A DNA stretch of 23,674 nt, from the IMG/VR virus record IMGVR_UViG_3300035703_000410, positions 1 through 23,674 of that record. One strand, given 5' to 3'. Below the pieces are notes generated by a model. The model had not been told where the DNA came from. It searched no databases and saw nothing but the letters and a program-made list of their open reading frames with translations. Position numbers and translations under genes: made by a program. This DNA is from a virus. This document shows positions 3,161-23,249 of the stretch, one piece after another; within the stretch, counting starts at the first letter, position 1; each line of letters opens with the position of its first letter.

Positions 3161-3351
3161 TTTAGCCACCCATCCCAAGCGGTTTTAAGTACGAGCAAAG
3201 CCGCACCAATACCTGCTAGCCACTTCATAAAAGCAACAAGCGTCTGAGCCGCTTTCCAGGCTTCTGCAAGGTCTTTGATTGAGTGATTGAGGTCGTCAAC
3301 TTTAGCCTCAATTTTCTCAACGTGCGCACGGAGTTGTTCGACCTCGCTCAT
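3157..3351 (-). CDS. XhlA-like coiled-coil membrane protein (64 aa)
   Basis: The first ~36 residues form a heptad-like charged helix (EQLRAHVEKIEAKVDDLNHS). One hydrophobic stretch follows (residues about 38-60: TLVAFMKWLAGIGAALLVLK) and then a short WDGWLK tail. This layout resembles XhlA-type haemolysin/holin accessories found beside phage lysis genes. GAGG at 3359-3362 serves as ribosome binding site. The gene directly precedes and overlaps the holin, so it is likely part of the lysis cassette. It could be an antiholin or pinholin partner. A spanin role is less likely because there is no lipobox or periplasmic C-terminal domain. No separate Rz/Rz1 pair was seen. Confidence 0.72.
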   Translation of the reverse strand: MSEVEQLRAHVEKIEAKVDDLNHSIKDLAEAWKAAQTLVAFMKWLAGIGAALLVLKTAWDGWLK

Positions 3352-3359
3352 GCTCTACC

Positions 3360-4490
3360 TCAACGGAATACAGCAACGGAAATTGCAGCAACGTCTGTTG
3401 CAGCCCCAGATCCAGCAGAAATTCTAACCTTGAAGTTGCCAGCAGCAAACGATGCTGATGGGGTGAATGCGACAAACTCTTCACCGGCAGAATCACCACC
3501 GCCACCAGAACAAACAGCGCAATAGTTTGCATCAGCCATTGCGGTTGTAAAGTTCACCGTATAGTCGCCAGTTCCGTTCTTGTAAACACTAGCAACATTG
3601 CCAGATGCAGAAATTGTTTGATTGGTTCCTGTAGTTCCCGTCCCATCAAACCTTACCCAGGCGCGAGCACCAAACACAGGAGCAGACCCAGACTGAGCAC
3701 CGCTCATCTTGGCAGCGGTAATAGCTCCATCAGATACAGTCGTGGCTGTCGTTGCTGTACCAGCATTGCCTGTAATGTTGATGCCCCAGTTGCCTGTAGC
3801 ACCTGTGCCGTTGGATGACGGGACATCAATGTTGATTCTCGCAGCAGCAGCCGTTGTTCCACCAGTTCCTCCGCTTGCAATCGCAAGCGTCGATGACAAT
3901 CCTGCTGCATTGCCTGTAATGCTGATCCCCCAAGTTCCTGACGCATTCGTTCCAGTTTTGGATGGCGCATAGTCGGTAATCTGCGCACCAACGAATGCAG
4001 TAGTCGCTGCTTTGGTGCTGCTATCTCCAAGAGTGGCAGTCGGAACGATTGGGCTACTGGAAAACGTCTTAACACCGGCAATCGTCTGATCTCCGGTCGT
4101 ATAAACCCCATTCGTCACCGTGTCGGCATTGCCTGTCACGTTACCCGTCACATTGCCAGTCAGGTTGCCTGTAACATTCCCAACAAACCCAGCAGACGTA
4201 AACGTACCAACAGACACACCATTGGCAGACACCCCTACAACATTAGCTCCACCAGAGTAAAAACCTGTATCAAGATCACCTGTAAACGTCCAAGATGGAG
4301 CAGCAGCAGTACCTGCCGGAGCAATGTATCGATCCATTGCGCCTGATTGCCACTCTTTCAGATCAGCCATCAACTGCCGGATGGCATTGTTGATGTTCGC
4401 AGGAGAGCAACCCTCTGCGATGTTGATTGAGTTGATGTCGGTGTTAAGGTCTGGGTTAGTGTCAAACTCGGAGATCTTTGTCTTTGCCAT
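3360..4490 (-). CDS. Tail fibre / receptor-binding protein
   Basis: This 376-aa fibre-type protein opens with a motif common to phage fibres (INIAEGCSPANINNAIRQLM, residues 22-41), probably the virion-attachment part. The middle is Gly/Thr/Asn-rich, includes four GN(V/L)T units (residues 104-119), and has the TLGDSSTKAATTAFV segment typical of trimeric fibres. The last ~100 residues (starting near FGARAWVRFDGTG) form a separate compact domain ending ISVAVFR and are the likely receptor-binding tip. It follows the internal virion genes and precedes lysis genes, the position of T7 gp17. It begins 2 bases after the upstream stop with GAGGA as ribosome binding site. Confidence 0.85.
   Translation of the reverse strand: MAKTKISEFDTNPDLNTDINSINIAEGCSPANINNAIRQLMADLKEWQSGAMDRYIAPAGTAAAPSWTFTGDLDTGFYSGGANVVGVSANGVSVGTFTSAGFVGNVTGNLTGNVTGNVTGNADTVTNGVYTTGDQTIAGVKTFSSSPIVPTATLGDSSTKAATTAFVGAQITDYAPSKTGTNASGTWGISITGNAAGLSSTLAIASGGTGGTTAAAARINIDVPSSNGTGATGNWGINITGNAGTATTATTVSDGAITAAKMSGAQSGSAPVFGARAWVRFDGTGTTGTNQTISASGNVASVYKNGTGDYTVNFTTAMADANYCAVCSGGGGDSAGEEFVAFTPSASFAAGNFKVRISAGSGAATDVAAISVAVFR
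4134..4181 (-). repeat. Four tandem 12-bp units encoding GN(V/L)T
   Basis: Four consecutive 12-base units of the form GG-N-AA-Y-N-TG/TT-AC encode GNVT, GNLT, GNVT, GNVT in the fibre gene, and a fifth degenerate unit encodes GNAD. The units differ mainly at third codon positions, so the repeat is kept at protein level. It could expand or contract by slippage or recombination and change shaft length. Confidence 0.8.
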
Positions 4491-4492
4491 GA

Positions 4493-6433
4493 TTATTCCT
4501 CAGTCAGACCAAACACCTGACCGTAGCCAAGTTTAAGTGCGCGTTTTTGAAGCTCTTGCGACAACGGAACCATTTCAGCAGTAGTCGCTTTCCTCATTAG
4601 CCTTGCAGCCAGTTTAGGGTCAAGCATAGCGTCAACAATCACCTCTCTGATCTGGTCGTCTGTTCCGTTGTATAGCCAGTTCATCGGAGCAGCAACCTTC
4701 TGCAAAACTGCTGGAACGTCTCCAAACATAGATTTCCCGGCAATAGCACCAATCACGTTTGCGACAGACAGGTTCCTGAACGTATTAGACCCAGGCTCTT
4801 GAGTAACTCGCAGCGTCGCTTCATCAAGATCCTGTCCAACCTTTTTCAAAACAGACAACTGTGTTTTGGATAGCTTGGTTTCGTTTTCAGCAGCACGAAT
4901 TGCGTTGACGAATTTTGGTTGTGAGATCAAATATTCAGACACATTCCCAGGGTCAGAAATCATTGGCGTTGTCGTCAACACCTTGCCCCTAAAATCCTGC
5001 GCGGCCTTCATCCGTTCAATGCCACGGCTTGATGCTGCATACTTTTTTAGATATTCACCATAACCCGGAGCAATAGACTCGATCTGTTCATCAATTGATC
5101 TAATGACTTGTTCAAGTTGGCCTTTGGCAAGACTGAAAGCAGATCCATCCTTGTCAAGCAATCCTTGAGCAGCATCTCTTAGGTCTTTACGAACTTCGTA
5201 AAGATCCGCTGGAGTTGTGGCTTTTTCGATTCTGGCTCTCGCAAAATTCATCGCTCGTTCAACAGGAACCCTTTTACCAGCAGGAGACGAGAGAATATTG
5301 GAGATCAAACCATCAACATTAGTGATGTTGTCGAAAAACTGCTCAGGAGTAACAGTTGACCGTTCAAACGCTTGCTCTCTCAAAGGTCTCGTTACCTCAT
5401 CACGCTTTGCGATAGCAGCATCAAGATCCGTTTTTTCTTTGGCAAGACGATCAAGAATTGACAACCTTGCACGATTGGCTTGCATGGATTGCTCAGTCAG
5501 TTTGCCTGTTACATCCAACCCACGAACAGGAGGAACAGCTGCGGCAAGACCAACGTCACGAGCAGCCTGTGCTGTAGTTGGAGTGTATCCCTGAACACCA
5601 GTCTGATACGCTTCCAGATTCCGAACAGCAGCATCTGGATCGCGTGACAACTGGCGGAGAATGTTTCCAACCACAACTTCCCTACCTGCTTCGGTAAACG
5701 GTCTTACAAGCTCTCGGCCACCCCTGGCAGCAGATTGAGCAGACAAGACAGCAGCAGTTCCGGCAGACGGAGCAACAGTCCCGGCAAGCACACCAAGACC
5801 AAGCTGCTCATACGGTCCCATGCCCTCTTCTCTCGCAAGAGCAGAGCCTAGAGCGCCAGCACCGGCAGATGTTGCCTGAAAAACTGGAGATTGCGTGAGC
5901 AATTCTTTGGGGGCAGCAAACCGAGCGGGCAATGCAGCACCAATACCAGCACCACCTAATACACCAGCAACAGCCGATGAAATATCTTGCGCTCGCTTCT
6001 CTTGCTCTGTCTCAGCCTCTGGTAGCCCAGCACGAGTCATCAACTGCTGTTGCGCCTGTGATGGCATCGGCAGACTTGTTCCACCAATCATGTTGACCAA
6101 AGACACAAGAGCATCAGACGCAAGAGCAGGAAGCCCTAGCGCACCAGTCACACCAGCACGAGCAGTCAACCCAAGTTGCCGACCAATGTCTGTATCTGTA
6201 ATTGAAAGAGGTTGGGCTTTTGCTTGCCTTGCCTCTTCAAGCAATCGCATTCTAGGCTGTTGACCTGGAGGTGTAGGTTGTAACCCAAGAGCAGTATCAA
6301 CAGCAGTCAAGGCGCGTTGAGCAATCGGTTCTTTCCCTGCAAGGATTCGCAATCCTGCTTCGCTAACATCCTGCATCCTGCCAGCAGAAATAAGCTCCAG
6401 ATCCTTCTCTGACAGCCTAGACAAATCAGCCAT
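4493..6433 (-). CDS. Large internal-virion / DNA-ejection-like protein (646 aa)
   Basis: This is the largest of four consecutive Ala/Gly/Gln-rich genes between the tail hub region and the tail fibre, in the place of T7 gp16. The N-terminus (DLSRLSEKDLELISAGRM) is helical. Residues roughly 85-250 hold several weakly hydrophobic Gly/Ala segments such as VAGVLGGAGIGAAL and LGLGVLAGTVAPSAG that could insert in membranes. Residues roughly 300-500 are charged and helical. I see no transglycosylase or peptidase motif. The family is not recognised with confidence, and the ejection role is inferred from position and composition. The start overlaps the preceding stop as TAATG. Confidence 0.72.
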   Translation of the reverse strand: MADLSRLSEKDLELISAGRMQDVSEAGLRILAGKEPIAQRALTAVDTALGLQPTPPGQQPRMRLLEEARQAKAQPLSITDTDIGRQLGLTARAGVTGALGLPALASDALVSLVNMIGGTSLPMPSQAQQQLMTRAGLPEAETEQEKRAQDISSAVAGVLGGAGIGAALPARFAAPKELLTQSPVFQATSAGAGALGSALAREEGMGPYEQLGLGVLAGTVAPSAGTAAVLSAQSAARGGRELVRPFTEAGREVVVGNILRQLSRDPDAAVRNLEAYQTGVQGYTPTTAQAARDVGLAAAVPPVRGLDVTGKLTEQSMQANRARLSILDRLAKEKTDLDAAIAKRDEVTRPLREQAFERSTVTPEQFFDNITNVDGLISNILSSPAGKRVPVERAMNFARARIEKATTPADLYEVRKDLRDAAQGLLDKDGSAFSLAKGQLEQVIRSIDEQIESIAPGYGEYLKKYAASSRGIERMKAAQDFRGKVLTTTPMISDPGNVSEYLISQPKFVNAIRAAENETKLSKTQLSVLKKVGQDLDEATLRVTQEPGSNTFRNLSVANVIGAIAGKSMFGDVPAVLQKVAAPMNWLYNGTDDQIREVIVDAMLDPKLAARLMRKATTAEMVPLSQELQKRALKLGYGQVFGLTEE

Positions 6434-14382: not shown

Positions 14383-14540
14383 TGACTCCAGGAGTTAGAA
14401 CCGCCAGAAACGGTTGTCCAGTTATTGGACGTTACAGGTGAATTATCCCACGAATTGTCAACATCTTGAACTGTACCCCAAACATCAGCAACAGAAGCAT
14501 CAGAAAAGCTAAGTTCAGCAAAGGATACGTCCCCAAACAT
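14379..14540 (-). CDS. Trp/Ser-rich small virion protein (53 aa)
   Basis: ATG at 14540 overlaps the S74 fibre gene stop (TGATG), and the TGA overlaps the spike-base start (ATGA). The peptide begins MFGDVSFAELSFSDASVADV and ends in a Trp/Ser/Asn-rich tail (NNWTTVSGGSNSWSQ). It contains four Trp and no charged C-terminus. The pattern resembles short 'aFaE.aFsD…W' proteins found beside tail spike genes in phages, but no function is established. Both couplings are exact, which strongly supports translation. Confidence 0.72.
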   Translation of the reverse strand: MFGDVSFAELSFSDASVADVWGTVQDVDNSWDNSPVTSNNWTTVSGGSNSWSQ

Positions 14541-16117
14541 CACTTAGCCTCCAGTTGCTCTATTCTGCTAGACAGTTCCTTGACAGCATTGACCAGATAC
14601 CAAATCAACCTGTCAGTATCAACCGAAAGCACTCCGTTTGACCTCTCCCGCACACACTCAGGCAGCATCTCCTGAGCGATCACACCGATTTGAACACCCG
14701 GCTTTTTAATCGCTTCAGACGGAGGCAGATCCGTAATCTCTTCTGCCAAACGGTACTCAAAGTTCCGAACCCTGATTGACTGAATCTTTTCCAGACCGTC
14801 TGAGCTATCAACAATGTTCTTCTTGATTCGTTGATCAGAAGTCGTCGCCCAAGTTGTCGTGTTAGACTCGTTGTACGCTCCGGTTGATCCACCTATGAAC
14901 GCTGTGTCGTTTCCTTTGCCTTGTAGCGCAGTTCCTAGGACAATCTCTTTATTGGCTGCCCCGCTGCTGGCTTGCGAATCAAGTCCGATATAGATCGATT
15001 TCTCACCTGTAGTGAAATCCTTGCCAGCATTCCGACCTACAAATACGGACTCTTTCCCATCCGTAAGTTGAGTTCCAGCAGAAAATCCAATAGCAGTGTT
15101 TTGCTGCCCAGAGTTGCTTTGACTATCTAGTGCAGTGCTACCAACTGCAACGCATTCTGTGTTGCTAGTTCCCGTTCCACGATTTAGCACCAAACCATTG
15201 ATACTTGTAGCAGCTGCAACCCCAAGAGTCGGCGTCACAAGCGTCGGCGATGTAGCAAACACCAGCGCACCTGTTCCCGTCTCACCCGTCACCGCTGCTG
15301 CAAGGTTGGCCGAAGACGGTGTGGCGAGGAACGTGGCAACGCCAGTTCCTAAAGCAGTCAGTCCTGTGCCGCCTCTACCAGCGGGAAGCGTTCCGGTCGT
15401 ACCCGCATCAATTGGTAAACCAGTGCAACTGGTTAGCGTCCCGGAACTTGGTGTGCCTAGCGCAGGAGTGACAAGTGTCGGGGACGTTGCAAATACTAGA
15501 GCACCAGTGCCCGTCTCGTCCGTAACAGCAGCGGCTAAATTGGCTGATGACGGAGTGCCCAGGAATGTTGCAATCCCTGTACCAAATGCAGAAATCCCTG
15601 TCCCGCCATTGGCAACTGGCAATATGCCGGTCACGCCAGTTGTAAGCGGCAATCCTGTTGCACTCGTCAGCGTAATCGCTGATGGTGTCCCAAGATTCGG
15701 AGTGACCAGAACAGGAGAGGTTGCAAACACCAATGATCCCGTGCCGGTTTCATCGGTCACAGCAGATCTAAGGTTTGCGGATGTTGGCGTCACCATCCAG
15801 GTGTTTACGTTCGCATCCAACCCTGTTTGAGATATTGAAGCAGGGAAAGTAGCAAAAACCTGTTTTTGCTCACCCGTAAAGTTGACCTTAGACCCCGTGC
15901 TGGACGACAAAACAGTTGTGCGTTGCAACGTAGATCCAACAACCTTACCTAATCCAACTTCCCAATCAAACTCACCGGCAATGCAGTAGTAGGTGTCATT
16001 TCCTTCGCCAATCACCTGAAATGTCTGATAGCCAGGATAAGACCCACTCAGGACAATATCGCCTGTTCCAGCCGTGGTGGAATACTGCCTGACCCGATCT
16101 TTCAGGACAATTGCCAT
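14540..16117 (-). CDS. Tail fibre with S74 intramolecular chaperone
   Basis: This 525-aa fibre has three parts. Residues 1-108 form a conserved N-terminal domain with TYYCIAGEFDWEVGLG and LQRTTVLSSSTGS, likely virion attachment. Residues 110-299 contain a 78-residue unit present twice in full and once in part. Residues ~320-525 carry a head-like repeat area and a C-terminal Peptidase_S74 chaperone. The S74 signature is clear: SDQRIKKNI (427-435) and IGVIAQE (477-483), then a terminal coiled coil ending SSRIEQLEAK. Ser427 and Lys432 are spaced like the Ser-Lys dyad of endosialidase chaperones, so autocleavage between Thr426 and Ser427 is predicted after trimerisation. It is coupled to the adaptor by TAATG. 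Confidence 0.9.
   Translation of the reverse strand: MAIVLKDRVRQYSTTAGTGDIVLSGSYPGYQTFQVIGEGNDTYYCIAGEFDWEVGLGKVVGSTLQRTTVLSSSTGSKVNFTGEQKQVFATFPASISQTGLDANVNTWMVTPTSANLRSAVTDETGTGSLVFATSPVLVTPNLGTPSAITLTSATGLPLTTGVTGILPVANGGTGISAFGTGIATFLGTPSSANLAAAVTDETGTGALVFATSPTLVTPALGTPSSGTLTSCTGLPIDAGTTGTLPAGRGGTGLTALGTGVATFLATPSSANLAAAVTGETGTGALVFATSPTLVTPTLGVAAATSINGLVLNRGTGTSNTECVAVGSTALDSQSNSGQQNTAIGFSAGTQLTDGKESVFVGRNAGKDFTTGEKSIYIGLDSQASSGAANKEIVLGTALQGKGNDTAFIGGSTGAYNESNTTTWATTSDQRIKKNIVDSSDGLEKIQSIRVRNFEYRLAEEITDLPPSEAIKKPGVQIGVIAQEMLPECVRERSNGVLSVDTDRLIWYLVNAVKELSSRIEQLEAK
15220..15790 (-). repeat. 78-residue (234-bp) tandem repeats in the S74 fibre
   Basis: The motif TP(T/S)SANL begins at residues 110, 188 and 266, corresponding to codons starting at 15790, 15556 and 15322 on the minus strand. 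The period is exactly 78 residues both times, and the third copy is truncated after TLVTPTLG. Each unit carries ETGTG(A/S)LVFATSP and, in the full copies, NGGTG or RGGTG. DNA copies have diverged in codon use while protein is kept. Confidence 0.88.
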
Positions 16118-16731
16118 TATCGCCTCGCAACTTTCATGCTGATCGGAGCGCCACTGTACTCACCCCTGTCGTCCGAGGTGGTCAACGAGTTCAATCCTCG
16201 CTCAAACATTCCAGCCCACACCGTCAGCCTGTTGTCGTTCATCAGATACGGTTCAGCCTCAACCAGAGACCCGTAGAGCAATAGATCAGGACACTGAGCC
16301 ATGAACACATTACTGGTGTTTGCGTTGCTCAGAAAGGGCGGAGCAGCGTAATACAGCATATAGATGTTGAACGTACCATTCGGAGCAGGGGAGACCTGGA
16401 TCTCGTCTGACAGAATGGTGTAGTTCCTAGGCTGACCAGACTCTTGAGCAAGTCCGTCACGAGTGAAGATCGACGGAGTTTGATAGGTTAGAGGCTGTTC
16501 TGGATTGGTCTCAAGATACAGGTTTCGCATCTCAAGAAAGTCACTCGGCAAACCAACAGTCGAACCCGTCATTGACGTATAGGACAGCTTCAGCATCTGC
16601 CGGATGCGAACATCCCTTCGCAACCTGATCTCAGTCAGACGGATAAAATCAGGGATCTGAGCGGTCAGATCACTTCTTGCGAGATAGTTTGCGATGCTTG
16701 TTTGCAGGTCGCTGTAGGTTGCTAGGGCCAT
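16117..16731 (-). CDS. Head-tail adaptor (gp11/tail tubular A-like)
   Basis: This 204-aa protein begins TYSDLQTSIANYLARSDLT and IPDFIRLTEIRLRRDVRIRQ, a helical opening typical of phage adaptor proteins that bind below the portal. It continues with beta segments (VGLPSDFLEMRNLYL, FNIYMLYYAAPPFL) and the closing pattern CPDLLLYGSLVEAEPYL, seen in adaptors of short-tailed phages. The protein should link the portal to the tail hub. Its start lies 62 bases inside the upstream glycosyltransferase-like gene, and there is no strong ribosome binding site, so it probably depends on coupling. The stop overlaps the fibre start as TAATG. Confidence 0.85.
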   Translation of the reverse strand: MALATYSDLQTSIANYLARSDLTAQIPDFIRLTEIRLRRDVRIRQMLKLSYTSMTGSTVGLPSDFLEMRNLYLETNPEQPLTYQTPSIFTRDGLAQESGQPRNYTILSDEIQVSPAPNGTFNIYMLYYAAPPFLSNANTSNVFMAQCPDLLLYGSLVEAEPYLMNDNRLTVWAGMFERGLNSLTTSDDRGEYSGAPISMKVARR

Positions 16732-17365
16732 GTTTTACGTCATCCCAGCCAAATGTTTTCGTTCCAATGTGACCAATGTGCATTGATAAATCATGGTCAA
16801 CAAACACCGGAACATCGTTTTCAAGACACCTGACACAAAACGTAACATCCTCGCCAATCACGTTTCCATGATCCGTCCAGATGATGTCATGCCATGGTTT
16901 CGGAATCTTCTTGAATACTTCAGTCCTGACGAGTGTAACACCGAACCCAACAGCGGTCACTTGCTCAATCCCGGACTTTCCCCTGCTCTCAATCTTCGTC
17001 CAAACCTGTTTTACAGAGTTAGGATCGCTTTTGTCGATCTTGAGATTCATAGCCGTGGGAACAATAGGCTCCCGCCTGGTCGTAGCATTGACACCTACTA
17101 GCGAGACATTCCTTGCAAGCAATACCTCAACAGTGTTTGCCGGAAACCGCATATCGCTGTCAATCCAGAGCACAGCGTCAGCACCCCATTCCAAAGCTTC
17201 ATCTGCAAGTTTCTCTCTCTGAGTGAAGATCAGCGTACCGGGCATCTGCAATAGCTGGATCTCATTCTGTCCACGCTTTGCCTCATACGCACACAGTCGC
17301 GCCAAATCAAAAGCAAACCCTGCCAGAACTGAATCTCGGCAGGGTACACAGATTGCAACCTTCAT
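16670..17365 (-). CDS. GT-A-type glycosyltransferase-like protein
   Basis: This 231-aa protein has a Rossmann-like start (MKVAICVPCRDSVLAGFAFD), a helix TQREKLADEALEWGAD, and the metal-binding DxD motif in WIDSDMRFP (Asp69 and Asp71). Later come VTAVGFGVTLVRTEVF (136-151), GEDVTFCVRC (171-180) with an Asp that could act as base, and HIGHIGTKTFGW with His196 and His199. These fit a small GT-A glycosyltransferase. Substrate is unknown. The start at 17365 is chosen because GGGGGAG lies directly upstream; an earlier in-frame ATG at 17401 lies within the previous gene. It sits inside the virion operon, so virion or host-surface glycans are plausible targets. Confidence 0.8.
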   Translation of the reverse strand: MKVAICVPCRDSVLAGFAFDLARLCAYEAKRGQNEIQLLQMPGTLIFTQREKLADEALEWGADAVLWIDSDMRFPANTVEVLLARNVSLVGVNATTRREPIVPTAMNLKIDKSDPNSVKQVWTKIESRGKSGIEQVTAVGFGVTLVRTEVFKKIPKPWHDIIWTDHGNVIGEDVTFCVRCLENDVPVFVDHDLSMHIGHIGTKTFGWDDVKHGPSNLQRPANKHRKLSRKK

Positions 17366-17373
17366 GACTCCCC

Positions 17374-17682
17374 CTATACAGAACCAGGATACGTTCGCCA
17401 AACCCTGTTATCTGGATCGTTCAGCCACTGCTTGAACGCTCGCTCATCCTCAATCATGAACCCTCGCATGATCTTCTTCTTGTTGAGGTCATCGATCACC
17501 GTAAACGGGATTCGAGCCACATGGGTCATGACGTTATCAATCTTCCGGGTCGCATTGGAGACCTGGATCTTGTTTGCTTCGATGATCGGAGTGACATCCT
17601 GACGAGTCTCTAGGATCACAACATCATCGAGCTTGTGAGCGATGGTGTATCGCCCGTCCCCAACTGAGAATAGTTCTGACAT
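17374..17682 (-). CDS. Hypothetical head-region protein (102 aa)
   Basis: The protein begins SELFSVGDGRYTIAHKLDDV, continues VVILETRQDVTPIIEANK and ends NDPDNRVWRTYPGSV, with RIPFTVIDDLNKKKIMRG in between. It is soluble and mixed alpha/beta. Such proteins are common directly after the capsid gene in short-tailed phages, but I know of no defined role. The gene begins seven bases after a strong hairpin and has no visible ribosome binding site in that spacer, unlike its neighbours. It ends with TAG eight bases before the glycosyltransferase-like start, whose ribosome binding site lies in that gap. Confidence 0.78.
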   Translation of the reverse strand: MSELFSVGDGRYTIAHKLDDVVILETRQDVTPIIEANKIQVSNATRKIDNVMTHVARIPFTVIDDLNKKKIMRGFMIEDERAFKQWLNDPDNRVWRTYPGSV

Positions 17683-17722: not shown

Positions 17723-18667
17723 TTACAGCGCAGGGTTCAGGTCAGCAACGATGCCATGAGCAGCCTCATTCCGCATCTCCAGCGTGAACTCAGCAATAAG
17801 CTGGGTCTTCTCGCTGTCGCCGGTCTTGGCAAGCTCTTGAGTCGCAAACGGTCGCAGATACGCAACTGCCGCATACTCAGGATCGAGCAGCAACGCATCC
17901 CGAGTCCGCATGAAGCGATCCGGAGTGATTGCCAACTGACCAAAGTCGCTGAGATACACATCAGCAGCCGCCAGGATGGTCGTGGGCGCATTCGCAGGAG
18001 CGTTGTAACGCTGGGTAGCAATACCCGCAAACGAACTAGCTTTCTGCTTCAGACCAGAACCAACAACCAGCAGCTTCGGATTGCCACCAGAATCAAAGCA
18101 CTCGGCAACAACAGTCTTCAACAGAGTTTCCGTGAAGGTCCGAGTCGCCCCATCCGAACGGGTCGAAACACCAATCGTCGTCGGATCGGTGCCAGACGTT
18201 CCGACAGATGTATTAGTCTTCAGCCACGACAGAATCGCACCCAGTTTCCGAGCGGAGGTCGAACTTCCAGCATCTCGGCCTTGATTGGCCGTGATGATGG
18301 TTTCCATGTCACGCTTCAGTTCTTGCGAAGCCTTCGAAAGCTGATATGCCTTCTCAGATTTCCGACCAGCCTTGTTTACTGCTTCAAGGGTGTTAGAGAT
18401 CTGAATCGTCTTCTGAACAATTTGGCTGTAGTTGCCAAGACGGACAGTCGGGCTGATCGTGGTTGCCGTTGCATCAGCACCTTCAACAGCAGCATTCGCA
18501 GCAGTCGCAGCAGCCAGAACATCAGTCTGCCACTCGTGATAAACAGCCGTCGCCTTCGTCCGAGCCAGAGTGCTCAGAATCGGGGTTTCGGTCGGGCTGA
18601 TGTCATAGATGACATCGATCAGGTCTTCGCGCTGGCCAATGGCCGTGTGTGCGGTAAACGTTGACAT
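17723..18667 (-). CDS. Major capsid protein, SU10-type
   Basis: This 314-aa protein forms the icosahedral shell. Signatures of the SU10-like capsid family (DUF5309) are visible: LIDVIYDISPTETPILSTLA (16-35), TKATAVYHEWQTDVLAAA (37-54), NAAVEGADA, then RLGNYSQIVQKTIQISNT and the central helix ELKRDMETIITANQ. The C-terminal half has LLVVGSGLKQKASSFAG, VYLSDFGQLAITPDRFM and YLRPFATQELAKTGDSEK, typical of the HK97-like fold's P and A domains. Length is normal for the family. It follows the scaffold gene by 5 bases, with AGGA as ribosome binding site, and is followed by the hairpin. Confidence 0.92.
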   Translation of the reverse strand: MSTFTAHTAIGQREDLIDVIYDISPTETPILSTLARTKATAVYHEWQTDVLAAATAANAAVEGADATATTISPTVRLGNYSQIVQKTIQISNTLEAVNKAGRKSEKAYQLSKASQELKRDMETIITANQGRDAGSSTSARKLGAILSWLKTNTSVGTSGTDPTTIGVSTRSDGATRTFTETLLKTVVAECFDSGGNPKLLVVGSGLKQKASSFAGIATQRYNAPANAPTTILAAADVYLSDFGQLAITPDRFMRTRDALLLDPEYAAVAYLRPFATQELAKTGDSEKTQLIAEFTLEMRNEAAHGIVADLNPAL

Positions 18668-18672
18668 TTCAG

Positions 18673-19599
18673 TTATCCTAAAAAGCGTTCAAAAAGTGCC
18701 GCAGCATCTCGCGGTTTGCCAGTCTGCCGCAGCGTTTTTCGCTGTGTCTGATATTGCTTTTGATCGGGTGGCGCACTTGTCGCTGTACCCGGTCTCAACA
18801 TCTTTGGAGCTTCAGCAACCCGCTTGGTTACCTCTGGCTTTCCCTTGACCAGTTTGTCGTACTGGGAAGCCTTCCAAAGCGTCAGAACAGCCCTGCTGTC
18901 ATAAACTTGCGCCAAATCCTCATCCGTGAAACCGACCTGCTTCGCATAGTTCCGGATCTCATTGCGAACAGCAGTGCCTTTCTCTGGATCTGCGAATTCC
19001 GGTATCGCTTGAGACAGTTTCTGCTGCTCTTCAGCAATCACCTGCTGCAACCTCTGCTGCTGCTCCGTTTGTTGCTGTAACGCAAGACGTTGCCTCTCAG
19101 CCTGAATCGCATACAACTGTTGCTGACGCTGCTGCTGCTCCGCGACCTTCACCGCAAAACCAATCGGATCAGACTCTTTCAGCGCATTTAAATCTTCTTG
19201 CGAGTCCTGCTGACTCAACACCTGCTCGATCATCTGCAAGCGTTGCGCATACTGGTCACGCAAGGTCTTTGCTTGCTCTACAGCGGCTTTTTCAGCCTCT
19301 ACAGCCTTCCGCTGCTCTGCAAGCGTCTGGGTCTTCTGAGTGTAGTCCCGGCCCTGCTGATAGCCTCTAATCAGGTCATCGAGCGTTACTTCAACCTCCT
19401 CGCCTGCCGCTTTGATACGGTAGCGGGGAGTTTCTTCAACCTGCTCTGTTTCCTGCTCTTCGGTATCAGGCTGCTCAATCTGTTCTTCCTGGGCTTCAGG
19501 AGTCGGCTGTTCGCCTTCCTCACCACCCATTAGTCCCATGATCGCAGCAGCACCAGTGTTTACATCCAGCGGCACACTTCCATTCGGATTGGTGTCCAT
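18673..19599 (-). CDS. Capsid scaffolding protein
   Basis: This 308-aa protein should guide procapsid assembly and then leave the head. Residues about 26-58 are very acidic (EEGEQPTPEAQEEQIEQPDT). A short conserved-looking domain follows (YRIKAAGEEVEVTLDDLIRG, 60-79). A long Gln/Glu-rich coiled coil covers about 85-205. The C-terminus has a basic helical end (QTQRKTLRQTGKPRDAAALF) suited to capsid contact. Position between portal and capsid and the overall composition fit scaffolds of T7/P22-type phages. AGGGG upstream at 6 bases supports the start. No protease gene is seen. Confidence 0.88.
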   Translation of the reverse strand: MDTNPNGSVPLDVNTGAAAIMGLMGGEEGEQPTPEAQEEQIEQPDTEEQETEQVEETPRYRIKAAGEEVEVTLDDLIRGYQQGRDYTQKTQTLAEQRKAVEAEKAAVEQAKTLRDQYAQRLQMIEQVLSQQDSQEDLNALKESDPIGFAVKVAEQQQRQQQLYAIQAERQRLALQQQTEQQQRLQQVIAEEQQKLSQAIPEFADPEKGTAVRNEIRNYAKQVGFTDEDLAQVYDSRAVLTLWKASQYDKLVKGKPEVTKRVAEAPKMLRPGTATSAPPDQKQYQTQRKTLRQTGKPRDAAALFERFLG

Positions 19600-19607
19600 T
19601 CAAACCC

Positions 19608-19841
19608 CTAAAGTATCTTCCATCGTTTAGACCTGATCTCAGTCGTTTCGGCTATTGCTTGGAAATGACTATAGATTTGATCTATTGCACGAATCATTTT
19701 ATACGCTGATTCGCGTTTGTCAATTTCATCATCCGAGGATGTCGTTATGACATCCAAATGCATCTGTCTGAGATACTGCATTTCATTTTTAAATGCATCA
19801 TCCCTCAGCAGGTTTGCAGCGCGTTCAGGCGTCATCCTCAT
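19608..19841 (-). CDS. Small helical protein between portal and scaffold (77 aa)
   Basis: ATG at 19841 overlaps the portal stop as ATGA. The sequence is strongly helical: TPERAANLLRDDAFKNEMQY, then LDVITTSSDDEIDKRESAYK and MIRAIDQIYSHFQAIAE. The 'dd.ekRe.ay..i.aid.i...f..i' pattern is common in small phage head-region proteins without known function. It is slightly AT-richer than its neighbours by eye. It may be a head assembly or connector accessory. Confidence 0.78.
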   Translation of the reverse strand: MRMTPERAANLLRDDAFKNEMQYLRQMHLDVITTSSDDEIDKRESAYKMIRAIDQIYSHFQAIAETTEIRSKRWKIL

Positions 19842-21859
19842 CCGGGAATCTCAACATTCCGAGTGATTCCAGCACCAATCTTGGCTGCTTTCAGTTGTGC
19901 CTCAACCTGGAATTCTGCTTGCTTTAACTCCAAATCTGCTGCGGCTTTTTCCCTTGCAAGCTGAATATCTGCTTGAGCCTTCATCCTCTGAGTCTCAATC
20001 GCAGCCATTGCTTTCTGCTGTTCAATCTGGATCTGAGCCTGTGCTTGAGCCATCATCGCATCCAGCGCAGGATTAGGCTGCGGTTCCTGCGGAGGAGGAT
20101 TGGACAAAGCCTGATCCTGTTCAGGAGTGATTTCTTTGAAGAACTCGCTGGAGTCCTTGAAGCCTGCCGCCTCGATAAACCGCCCAAGCGTCATCCGATA
20201 CTGACCGAGAGAAACCAGCGGGTTAGCAGGACCAAGCGTCTGTAGGATCTGCTCCTGTTTGGCAAGAACCATCTGGAGCATAGTCATCTGCTCTTGTTTG
20301 GTTCCAGTCCCAAGCCCAACAGAAATGCTCACATCGTACTGATTAGACCACTCCCGCGGGTCCATCTCAATGAACTTTCCACGCATCCTGATGATGGTTG
20401 GCTTGTCTTGGTACTTGCAAACAAGCTGGAGAATGCCCTTGAACAGGCTCTTGACACCAGTCTCAGCAAAGATCCTAGCGATCAACTCCATCTTGCCCTG
20501 CTGAGCGCTTGTAACGGCTGCTACAGCCGCTGCTGTGACATTGGCTAGTACGTTAGGATCAAGCCCCTGCTGTGCGTCTGAGACCCCTGTACGCTTCTGC
20601 TGAACCTGATCGAAGTATTCCAGCATCGGGAATGCTTGCGCGGCAACAGGAGTCACCTGAAGCGGAACAACAGCAGCAGGGTTTTTCAGCCGAACAACAC
20701 CGCCAGGAGTGACGTTCAGCAGGTCATCTAGGTTGACCTGACCCTCGACAGCACCAACACGAGCATTGTTCGTGAGATACAGGTTATCCAGCATCTGCCG
20801 AACGATGGTGGACTTGATCAACTGGATGTCCATCGTCCTGTCGGCCAGCGACTGCCCAAAGAACTTATGCGGAATCGGGATCGGGCAGACAACGTGGAAC
20901 GGGCAATAGTCCGTCTGCTCGTTACTCAAAATTTGATTGTTGGTGTAAACAATCCTGCGGAACTCTGCAATGCCATCCTCATCAAAATCAACGTAGATAT
21001 AGCATTCAAACACCTCGATCTCTTGCATGGCAGGATCAAGGCTGTTCTGCTCAAAAGGTTCCTCTCCAGGACTGTATCGAGCAATCTTCTCTTCAGTGAA
21101 ATCCAGACTGTTGTAAACAGGCAGGTTGTCCACAATCTCAGGGTCAAAACCCATCTGCAATAACTCAGTCCTGGGAACCAATGTGCGATGCGCCATGAAC
21201 GGAGCATCTTGCATATTCTTGGCTCGCTTGGAGACGATCAGTTCTTCCGGAGGAACATTCTCAATGACAATCTTGCCGTGTTTGTTGGACTTGCGCACCA
21301 CAACGTTAAAAAACTGCTGCGCCATCACCTGACCGTCCGGGCCTTGCATCTCCTGTTGCACAACTTCCTGAGCAACAATTTGACGCGATTGGTCCGACAT
21401 CAGCAGGACAAGTTCAGTCTCCGAGAGGTTCTGATACACCTCCTCGATGACGTCGATCTTCTCATCCCAGTAGCATTTCACCGTACCGGTTTTCTGAAGT
21501 AGCGCATCCTTAAACCAGTGGTGCAAAATCTGGAAACCGGGATTCTGTTTGTAGAACACCCAGTTCGCATATTCAGTAGCCTGTTTTGCGCCCTCTTCGT
21601 CTCCAGGTCCAACAGGCTCAAAACGCACGATGTCATCTGATGCCGTGAATACCCGAATCAACTGAGGCAGAGCACCGTCAATCGCCTCTGCGACCTCACC
21701 CGTGACAATCTGGCTGCGACCTTCTACCTCGTTCCCGTACGGGTTTCGCAGGTAGTAATCCATCGACAGTGCGCGTTCTTCGGTCGTCTCAGTATCGAGA
21801 TAACCAATCGCATCATCGATTTCAGCAGACAGGATAGCTTTCAGTCGGCCTTCGTCCAT
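19838..21859 (-). CDS. Portal protein
   Basis: This 673-aa protein should form the dodecameric channel through which DNA enters and leaves the head. The N-terminal part includes LSAEIDDAIGYLDTETTEER, EVEGRSQIVTGEVAEAIDGA and LPQLIRVFTASDDIVRFEPV. The middle carries HHWFKDALLQKTGTVKCYW and CPFHVVCPIPIPHKFFGQS, with SLADRTMDIQLIKSTIVRQM after it. These features are typical of the large portals of P22-like short-tailed phages. From about residue 604 a long Gln/Ala/Lys coiled coil extends to near the C-terminus. Its start overlaps the 52-aa gene by 19 bases and its stop is coupled to the 77-aa gene. Confidence 0.9.
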   Translation of the reverse strand: MDEGRLKAILSAEIDDAIGYLDTETTEERALSMDYYLRNPYGNEVEGRSQIVTGEVAEAIDGALPQLIRVFTASDDIVRFEPVGPGDEEGAKQATEYANWVFYKQNPGFQILHHWFKDALLQKTGTVKCYWDEKIDVIEEVYQNLSETELVLLMSDQSRQIVAQEVVQQEMQGPDGQVMAQQFFNVVVRKSNKHGKIVIENVPPEELIVSKRAKNMQDAPFMAHRTLVPRTELLQMGFDPEIVDNLPVYNSLDFTEEKIARYSPGEEPFEQNSLDPAMQEIEVFECYIYVDFDEDGIAEFRRIVYTNNQILSNEQTDYCPFHVVCPIPIPHKFFGQSLADRTMDIQLIKSTIVRQMLDNLYLTNNARVGAVEGQVNLDDLLNVTPGGVVRLKNPAAVVPLQVTPVAAQAFPMLEYFDQVQQKRTGVSDAQQGLDPNVLANVTAAAVAAVTSAQQGKMELIARIFAETGVKSLFKGILQLVCKYQDKPTIIRMRGKFIEMDPREWSNQYDVSISVGLGTGTKQEQMTMLQMVLAKQEQILQTLGPANPLVSLGQYRMTLGRFIEAAGFKDSSEFFKEITPEQDQALSNPPPQEPQPNPALDAMMAQAQAQIQIEQQKAMAAIETQRMKAQADIQLAREKAAADLELKQAEFQVEAQLKAAKIGAGITRNVEIPG

Positions 21860-21999
21860 TTTTCCGCTCGCTTTGTGTACGGTCGTTTCTCAGGCTGCAA
21901 TTCCTTTACCTGAGCCTCTAGGCGCTCAATTCGCTCGGTGAGTTCTTTAATCACCTCGTCGAACATTCTGCGCGGAGTTATCAATCCTTGAGGAATCAT
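21841..21999 (-). CDS. Small coiled-coil protein between terminase and portal (52 aa)
   Basis: ATG at 21999 overlaps the large terminase stop as ATGA. TGA lies at 21843-21841, inside the portal gene, so it overlaps the portal by 19 bases. The peptide begins MIPQGLITPRRMFDE and contains a clear coiled coil (VIKELTERIERLEAQVKELQ), followed by a basic tail (KRPYTKRAEKWTKAD). Function is unknown; its position suggests a packaging or portal-associated helper. The exact coupling at the start and the coiled-coil pattern argue that it is real. Confidence 0.72.
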   Translation of the reverse strand: MIPQGLITPRRMFDEVIKELTERIERLEAQVKELQPEKRPYTKRAEKWTKAD

Positions 22000-23249
22000 A
22001 CCACCCACCTCGTATTATTTTTCAATGGCTTACCCCAATCGTCATTCGACATCATGTCCAACGATTGAGCCAAATATCGCCAAGCATCCGCTGCGTGACT
22101 GTGCTCATCGTGCAATGGTGCTCCAGGTTCGTTCGTCACCTGATTGACTGCTCGCCTGTATCGCTTGAGATGATTCACAAGCTCCATGCACTTATCAGCG
22201 TCAAAATAGGCTCTAGGGAACACTTGCCGAGCCAGCCTGATACCTTCCTCCAGGTTTCCTCTTGCGAGCACCTGAACCGTTCTACCAAGGCTCTGAAGCA
22301 TTTCCTCTGTGCTCTTGCCTGACTTGAAGTCTCTGTGCGCTCCATCGTGCGGAATGAAGTCTGTGCCCCAGTTCCACTTTCGTTCTTGAAGTTGCATGAC
22401 GTATGAATCAATCGTCCTGTGACTGTCCTCGATGTAATCCACAACCCTGATCTCTGAGGCAACCTTCTGCACACAGATGATCGACATGCTGTCGTTCCAT
22501 CCCAAGTCCCAGACGGTATGCACCTTCAGCAGAGGATCAACAGGGACGTTCCTGATGCGACCGTCTCTCTGAATGGTCTCCATCTCACTGGCGTAGATCG
22601 CACCCTCGACAGCAGGCCTGCACCGACCTTCCCAGGTTGTCAGATACCCTGTCGGGTCCCGATCCAACCAATCCCTGCGCTCTTTGTCTAGTTCAGTAGG
22701 GAACCAAGGATTGTCTGACCAGTTGACCTGACAGACCCAACTCTCAGCAGGTGGACTGGTCACGAATCTGGTGTAGGTCTCATCCGTATCCAATTCAGGG
22801 TTGAAGCTGACCCAGATCTCTGACCCAGGCTTGCGGATGGTCGGAATGAGAATATCCCAAGACCTTTTTGTCACTACTTGAGCCTCTTCCACCCAGCAGA
22901 TGTCCGTGCCTTCGTAGCTCTTGAGATTGGCGACACCCTGTTGGCGTATCCCAGCGAAGGTGAACTCTGTTCCATTCCTACCGAGAATCTTGGTCTCTTG
23001 AACCTCGTAGAACTCATGCAGGTTCAATAGTTCGATCTGATCCTTCAGCAGCCTATGGACAGACTCTTGGATGCTCTTCTGAGTCTCCCTGGCACACAGA
23101 ACCCTGACCGGCTTGGATGCACCTATCGCTACCAATGCACGAGCAGCAGACCATGATTTGCCTGAACCCCGTCCACCATGAAGGATCTTGTATCGCTTCG
23201 GTTGGAAGAGTGGGAGGAGCTTACTCGGAATCTCGACCTTCTGCCTCAA
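21996..23249 (-). CDS. terL: Terminase large subunit (PBSX/Terminase_3 type)
   Basis: This 417-aa packaging motor ATPase and nuclease has all expected motifs. Walker A is GGRGSGKS (25-32), Walker B ICWVEE (117-122), and the coupling motif VSFNP (147-151). The RNase-H-like nuclease domain shows VWDLGWND with Asp248, FIPHDGAHRD with Asp302, and HDEHSHAADAWRY with His384 and Asp388. The sequence resembles PBSX-type enzymes. The start is inside the small terminase gene, overlapping it by 29 bases. The length and intact motifs suggest an active enzyme. Confidence 0.95.
   Translation of the reverse strand: MRQKVEIPSKLLPLFQPKRYKILHGGRGSGKSWSAARALVAIGASKPVRVLCARETQKSIQESVHRLLKDQIELLNLHEFYEVQETKILGRNGTEFTFAGIRQQGVANLKSYEGTDICWVEEAQVVTKRSWDILIPTIRKPGSEIWVSFNPELDTDETYTRFVTSPPAESWVCQVNWSDNPWFPTELDKERRDWLDRDPTGYLTTWEGRCRPAVEGAIYASEMETIQRDGRIRNVPVDPLLKVHTVWDLGWNDSMSIICVQKVASEIRVVDYIEDSHRTIDSYVMQLQERKWNWGTDFIPHDGAHRDFKSGKSTEEMLQSLGRTVQVLARGNLEEGIRLARQVFPRAYFDADKCMELVNHLKRYRRAVNQVTNEPGAPLHDEHSHAADAWRYLAQSLDMMSNDDWGKPLKNNTRWVV

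Follow-up and report, generated by a model that had tools for sequence, protein, structure and literature searches.

Why should a gene that looks like a glycosyltransferase (GT) stand in the middle of a virion operon, with its end running into the gene for the head-tail adaptor? The window analyzed here, a virus record of 23,674 bases, is from a freshwater phage, and the genes that bear on this question are arranged as follows:

21996..23249, minus strand: terminase large subunit
19838..21859, minus strand: SU10-type portal protein
18673..19599, minus strand: head scaffolding protein (phrog_3927)
17723..18667, minus strand: SU10-type major capsid protein (MCP; Pfam SU10_MCP, E 4e-98)
17374..17682, minus strand: g102, a small conserved gene between the MCP and the GT or adaptor (phrog_3982; LUZ24 gp61-type)
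16670..17365, minus strand: predicted GT-A glycosyltransferase gene (phrog_1574), 231 aa, with DxD at residues 69-71, GED at 171-173 and H199
16670..16731, minus strand: GT/adaptor overlap of 62 bases, dual-coding, formed by the GT 3' end and the adaptor 5' end in different frames
16117..16731, minus strand: SU10-type head-tail adaptor (Pfam SU10_adaptor, E 9e-32)
14540..16117, minus strand: tail fibre-like protein, 3' of the adaptor

The SU10 portal, MCP and adaptor occur in that order, which identifies a head module of the LUZ24/SU10 type, and gp66-gp60 of LUZ24 (Bruynoghevirus) have the same succession of terL, portal, small gene, scaffold, MCP, g102 and adaptor. Inspection of the ORFs agrees with the initial annotation in that the GT gene lies between a capsid-linked gene (g102, 17682..17374) and the adaptor gene (16731..16117), with bases 16670-16731 common to both the GT and adaptor ORFs but read in different frames. 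The GT ORF runs on the minus strand from an ATG at 17365 to a stop codon at 16670. A TTG at 17401 would provide an alternative start and a longer ORF; the ATG at 17365, which is preceded by AGGGGGAG, is the start that GT homologues keep. All three motifs initially recognized are present in the 231-residue product, i.e., WIDSDM (containing D69 and D71), GED (171-173) and HIGHIG (containing H199). That this is a chance ORF or an annotation artefact is ruled out by its homologues, its invariant residues and the synonymous constraint described below. The adjacent g102, of the LUZ24 gp61 type, stands universally between the MCP and the adaptor; the idea that it is one of the known decoration or neck proteins was considered and dropped, its predicted model (pLDDT 83, pTM 0.69) having no PDB match at E 0.001.

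The protein itself is modeled as a GT-A glycosyltransferase fold that retains all recognized catalytic residues, so the GT-A-like identity proposed from motifs alone has gained the backing of profile searches and structure prediction. Searched directly and by itself, the protein had no usable match in Pfam or NCBIfam and did not reach the cut-off of PF00535 (CAZy GT2), a family that some of its relatives match at 2e-4. It does match phrog_1574 (E 2e-19, residues 2-209 on profile positions 14-237 of 240), and its aligned relatives match Pfam Anp1 (GT62-like; best 1e-8), Glyco_transf_21 (1e-6) and GT2 (2e-4). When the family profile was compared with the sequences of solved structures, it recovered A197 of the archaeal virus STIV (E 0.0035) and yeast Mnn9 (E 0.028), and the alignment pairs E172-D173 of the GT with E150-D151 of A197. 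An AlphaFold2 model built from 37 sequences (mean pLDDT 89.9, pTM 0.85) superposes over residues 1-207 on many GT-A structures, such that the GT-A fold extends over the whole domain. The top structural match by Z is again A197 (PDB 2C0N; Z 20.5, rmsd 2.1 Å, 169 residues, 20% identity), which Foldseek places second among all chains, making A197 the nearest neighbor by both fold and PDB sequence profile. Next in order are LH3, Mnn9 (Z 17.6, rmsd 3.4, 185 aligned), mimivirus R699 and human ColGalT1, several of which are from protein-glycosylating enzymes. Six residues (R50, D69, D71, E172, D173 and H199) are invariant in 143/143 distinct homologues, and the last five of these provide the DxD, the catalytic acid/base and the C-terminal His of a GT-A enzyme. 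A scan of the protein for hydrophobic segments found no long one. Sugar-transfer activity is an inference, as are the donor, the acceptor and the role of the tail that are proposed below. The family has been catalogued before, as phrog_1574 and in the genomes MW202573 (as ‘A197’) and MW202496 (as ‘putative glycosyltransferase’), some of these being automatic annotations; PHROGs lists phrog_1574 as of unknown function, and our results give it a predicted one.

If the overlap with the adaptor were only a by-product of compact packing, synonymous sites of the adaptor would not be expected to change more slowly within it. In 47 loci the two genes share 62 bases, and in 87 they share 71; this overlap is not a constant of the family, as it shrinks to 1-11 bases in distant members or the genes merely abut. 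Among 20 divergent representatives of the 62/71-base class, the adaptor shows a synonymous third-position change of 0.23 within the shared segment vs. 0.54 downstream (p = 5e-5), with no such drop in modules that have no long overlap (0.54/0.53) or that lack the GT (0.56/0.52). Because adaptor synonymous change falls only in the overlap class, the GT tail is under selection and the region is dual-coding, and packing alone is ruled out as the explanation for the 62/71-base class. A single genome would be insufficient to establish dual coding, since in the window 19% of synonymous adaptor recodings leave the GT frame open for this length, and it is the comparative test that supplies the proof. 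The overlap encodes GT residues ~212-231, which include seven K/R and zero D/E and are mostly disordered in the model (pLDDT <50 at 215-220 and 224-231). The dual-coded region contributes only a disordered, basic tail to the predicted enzyme. Other same-strand ORF overlaps of ~100-130 bases, subject to the choice of start codons, occur in the tail region of the window (12097-12522/12390-14126 and 9512-9997/9900-10679).

The placement of the gene was examined in 257 loci that hold both an MCP and an adaptor. The GT is present in 180/257 and absent from 77/257 of these head modules, a ratio that does not represent a population frequency, since the loci were found through their resemblance either to the GT or to a single MCP from a module without it. 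The order MCP-g102-GT-adaptor occurs in 179/180 GT-bearing loci, and the sole exception (locus L173) results from an over-extended ORF start. Unlike the window, LUZ24 and 76 other modules have no GT between g102 and the adaptor; besides LUZ24, the gene is missing from the cultured relatives Sinorhizobium phiM5, Venkman, HTVC106P and Bradyrhizobium ppBeUSDA76-2, among others. The Microcystis phage Mel-JY34, by contrast, is a cultured phage that bears the GT. On the MCP tree, the presence of the GT requires 4 changes vs. a shuffled mean of 14, and among 32 representatives the divergence of the GT is correlated with that of the MCP (Mantel correlation 0.909) to the same extent as is that of the adaptor (0.902). 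GT presence is clustered on the MCP tree and GT divergence tracks that of the MCP; the gene descends together with the head module instead of being repeatedly gained and lost. The statement in the initial annotation that such genes sit more often in accessory regions applies to distant copies in large cyanophages (e.g., S-TIM5), which lie outside the head genes, but not to the main branch of the family.

Two GT-lacking relatives carry other genes between the MCP and the adaptor, a GDSL/SGNH hydrolase in phiM5 (L206 7346-8656), where the hydrolase is in the virion proteome, and an HNH endonuclease in L211 (5009-5848). With such cargo, the MCP-adaptor interval resembles an insertion hotspot.

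The association with virion genes extends to unrelated capsids. Distant GT members (20-30% identity) occupy the post-coat junction in P22-type phages (L195-L198), and in MW202573 (L295) the order is coat, hypothetical, methyltransferase, GT (auto-annotated A197), hypothetical and tail adaptor. On two Clostridia-associated contigs, the GT directly follows either an HK97-type MCP whose C terminus carries an Ig domain (L202) or a major tail protein (L203). In the cultured mycobacteriophage Wanda (cluster J), gp15 matches the GT family profile (E 4e-17) and stands in the order MCP gp14, GT gp15, kinase, methyltransferase, further GTs and head-tail connector. This cluster J cassette between MCP and connector (gp15-gp24 in Wanda; also in Thibault, Baka and Omega) is similar to the window in having a homologous GT directly after the MCP and before the connector; it differs in belonging to another capsid family and in its size of 8-10 genes, which encode a kinase and a methyltransferase besides several GTs, whereas the window phage has one GT alone. 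The insertion and its predicted glycosyltransferases had already been described, with no role assigned (Pope et al. 2013, PMC3706429). The initial proposal of a link to the timing of virion assembly is thus strengthened by strict synteny, by co-divergence with the MCP and by recurrence beside capsid or tail proteins.

In the P22-type loci L195 and L295 (MW202573.1), the GT comes after a small methyltransferase-like gene, an order shared with the virion-glycosylation cassettes of actinobacteriophages, and this arrangement suggests a methylated glycan in those modules. In L194 (108-1567), two phrog_1574-type GT genes lie in tandem on the strand opposite a P22-type coat gene.

What, then, does the enzyme modify? 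The reading that we favor, with a probability of roughly 0.6, is that, while the head is being assembled, it attaches sugar from the host to a virion protein. The late minus-strand operon would yield a small, soluble GT alongside the head proteins, and the host would provide the sugar nucleotide donor. A metal ion would be bound by D69/D71 and H199, D173 would serve as the catalytic base, and the sugar would reach the virion protein as the head assembles or shortly beforehand. The MCP is the most likely acceptor, the tail fibre-like protein encoded at 14540..16117 being a possible other one, and the dual-coded, disordered basic tail may keep the enzyme close to its substrate.

Several lines of evidence favor a virion-protein acceptor. 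The GT is a fixed neighbor of the capsid protein or the major tail protein in four or more head or tail settings, and its nearest folds come from protein-glycosylating enzymes. Support also comes from STIV, whose capsid protein is glycosylated and in which A197 is essential; A197 has been proposed to glycosylate this capsid protein, a link that is inferred in the literature (PMC10551542). Like the window GT, A197 is a minimal single-domain GT-A fold, and its D151, which aligns with D173 of the GT, is the catalytic base, the D151E mutation delaying virus replication (PMC10551542). The two differ in that A197 belongs to an archaeal virus with a double-jelly-roll capsid, has no overlap with an adaptor gene and is only 20% identical. 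In addition, the capsid and tail tube of Mycobacterium phages are reported to be glycosylated (PMC12619734, PMC11600133, PMC11256854 citing Freeman 2023). In Che8-type virion glycosylation, as cited in these sources, phage-coded GTs glycosylate capsid and tail tube, and their genes lie at the 3' end of the genome, outside the head module. Membership of the window GT in the Che8 gp108-110 family was ruled out, with hhalign probabilities of 0.4-2.7% and different PHROGs. Counting against the proposed role is the existence of 77 sister modules without the GT. An unweighted count had Tyr80 and six other MCP columns tracking GT presence; the tree-based test supported no column, and no MCP, g102 or adaptor residue tracks GT presence in a phylogenetically independent manner, a comparison that is underpowered with only 2-4 independent changes.

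The same placement bears on the alternatives to glycosylation of the virion. If the enzyme were to act on a non-virion protein of host or phage, or on a small molecule (e.g., in host takeover or counter-defence), the operon would set only the timing of its expression. Late operons can hold cargo genes, and large cyanophages have their distant copies away from the head genes; however, cargo would be expected to change slots, and the GT stays put down to ~45% GT identity and below. We view such a target as unlikely. It is likewise improbable that the enzyme alters host surface glycans late in infection, thereby keeping progeny or competing phages from adsorbing again. That some phage GTs alter the sugars on the host surface is well established (restated in PMC10955285 and PMC12619734), and the nearest non-viral folds include the teichoic-acid/polysaccharide GTs TarP, TarS and KfiA. 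Against this role, the GT has no membrane segment and no gtrA/gtrB-like partners were noticed beside it; its fixed position in the head module and tight co-divergence with the MCP show no free shuffling, and in several modules of unrelated types its relatives adjoin a capsid or tail protein.

Glycosylation of modified DNA bases before packaging is very unlikely. Phage DNA GTs exist (PMC12619734 citing Pyle 2024; PMC12838424), but genes for base hypermodification were noticed neither in the window nor in two complete relative genomes, and among the closest folds those whose acceptors are known modify proteins or polysaccharides. Moreover, a DNA substrate would leave the placement at the head junction unexplained. 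Least probable of all is a catalytically dead fold serving as a structural part of the head: the best LH3 match is to its region 296-519, which we take to be a non-catalytic accessory domain, and the protein is small and encoded at a head position, but its recognized metal and base residues are all invariant across 143 homologues, and it is absent from 77 related head modules and so cannot be a needed head part.

Virion glycosylation has, to our knowledge, been documented so far mainly in mycobacterial/actinobacteriophages and archaeal viruses. That phage enzymes glycosylate virions is already known, as is the cluster J cassette at the same junction; what is new is that aquatic phages with LUZ24/SU10-type heads have a single-gene form as a fixed part of the module, that the GT recurs at one junction in phages whose capsids are unrelated, and that its dual-coded tail is under selection. 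We found no paper on the placement of a GT gene in LUZ24-type phages in the open-licence literature. If glycosylation of a virion protein by this enzyme holds true, one gene, kept at a set place in the heads of hundreds of uncultured phages from aquatic habitats and found again at this junction in modules of the P22, HK97 and cluster J types, would make virion glycosylation a common trait. The stability of the particles, their adsorption or their recognition would probably be affected, and the window GT would offer a simple one-enzyme system for testing it. A broader reading, that assembly-coupled capsid glycosylation by one tail-tethered GT-A enzyme is widespread among aquatic LUZ24/SU10-headed phages and that the junction is reused in unrelated capsid lineages, is tentative and, in our judgment, rather doubtful.

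Individual members of the set depart from the window in gene structure or annotation. Homologues of the GT in L162, L167 and L173 have C-terminal extensions of ~50-90 residues past the core, and in L201 the adaptor directly after the GT (3343-5304, 653 aa) apparently carries a long C-terminal fusion. In the public complete genome MW202462.1 (L293), the GT ORF at 17946-18557 is unannotated and occupies a gap between two annotated genes.
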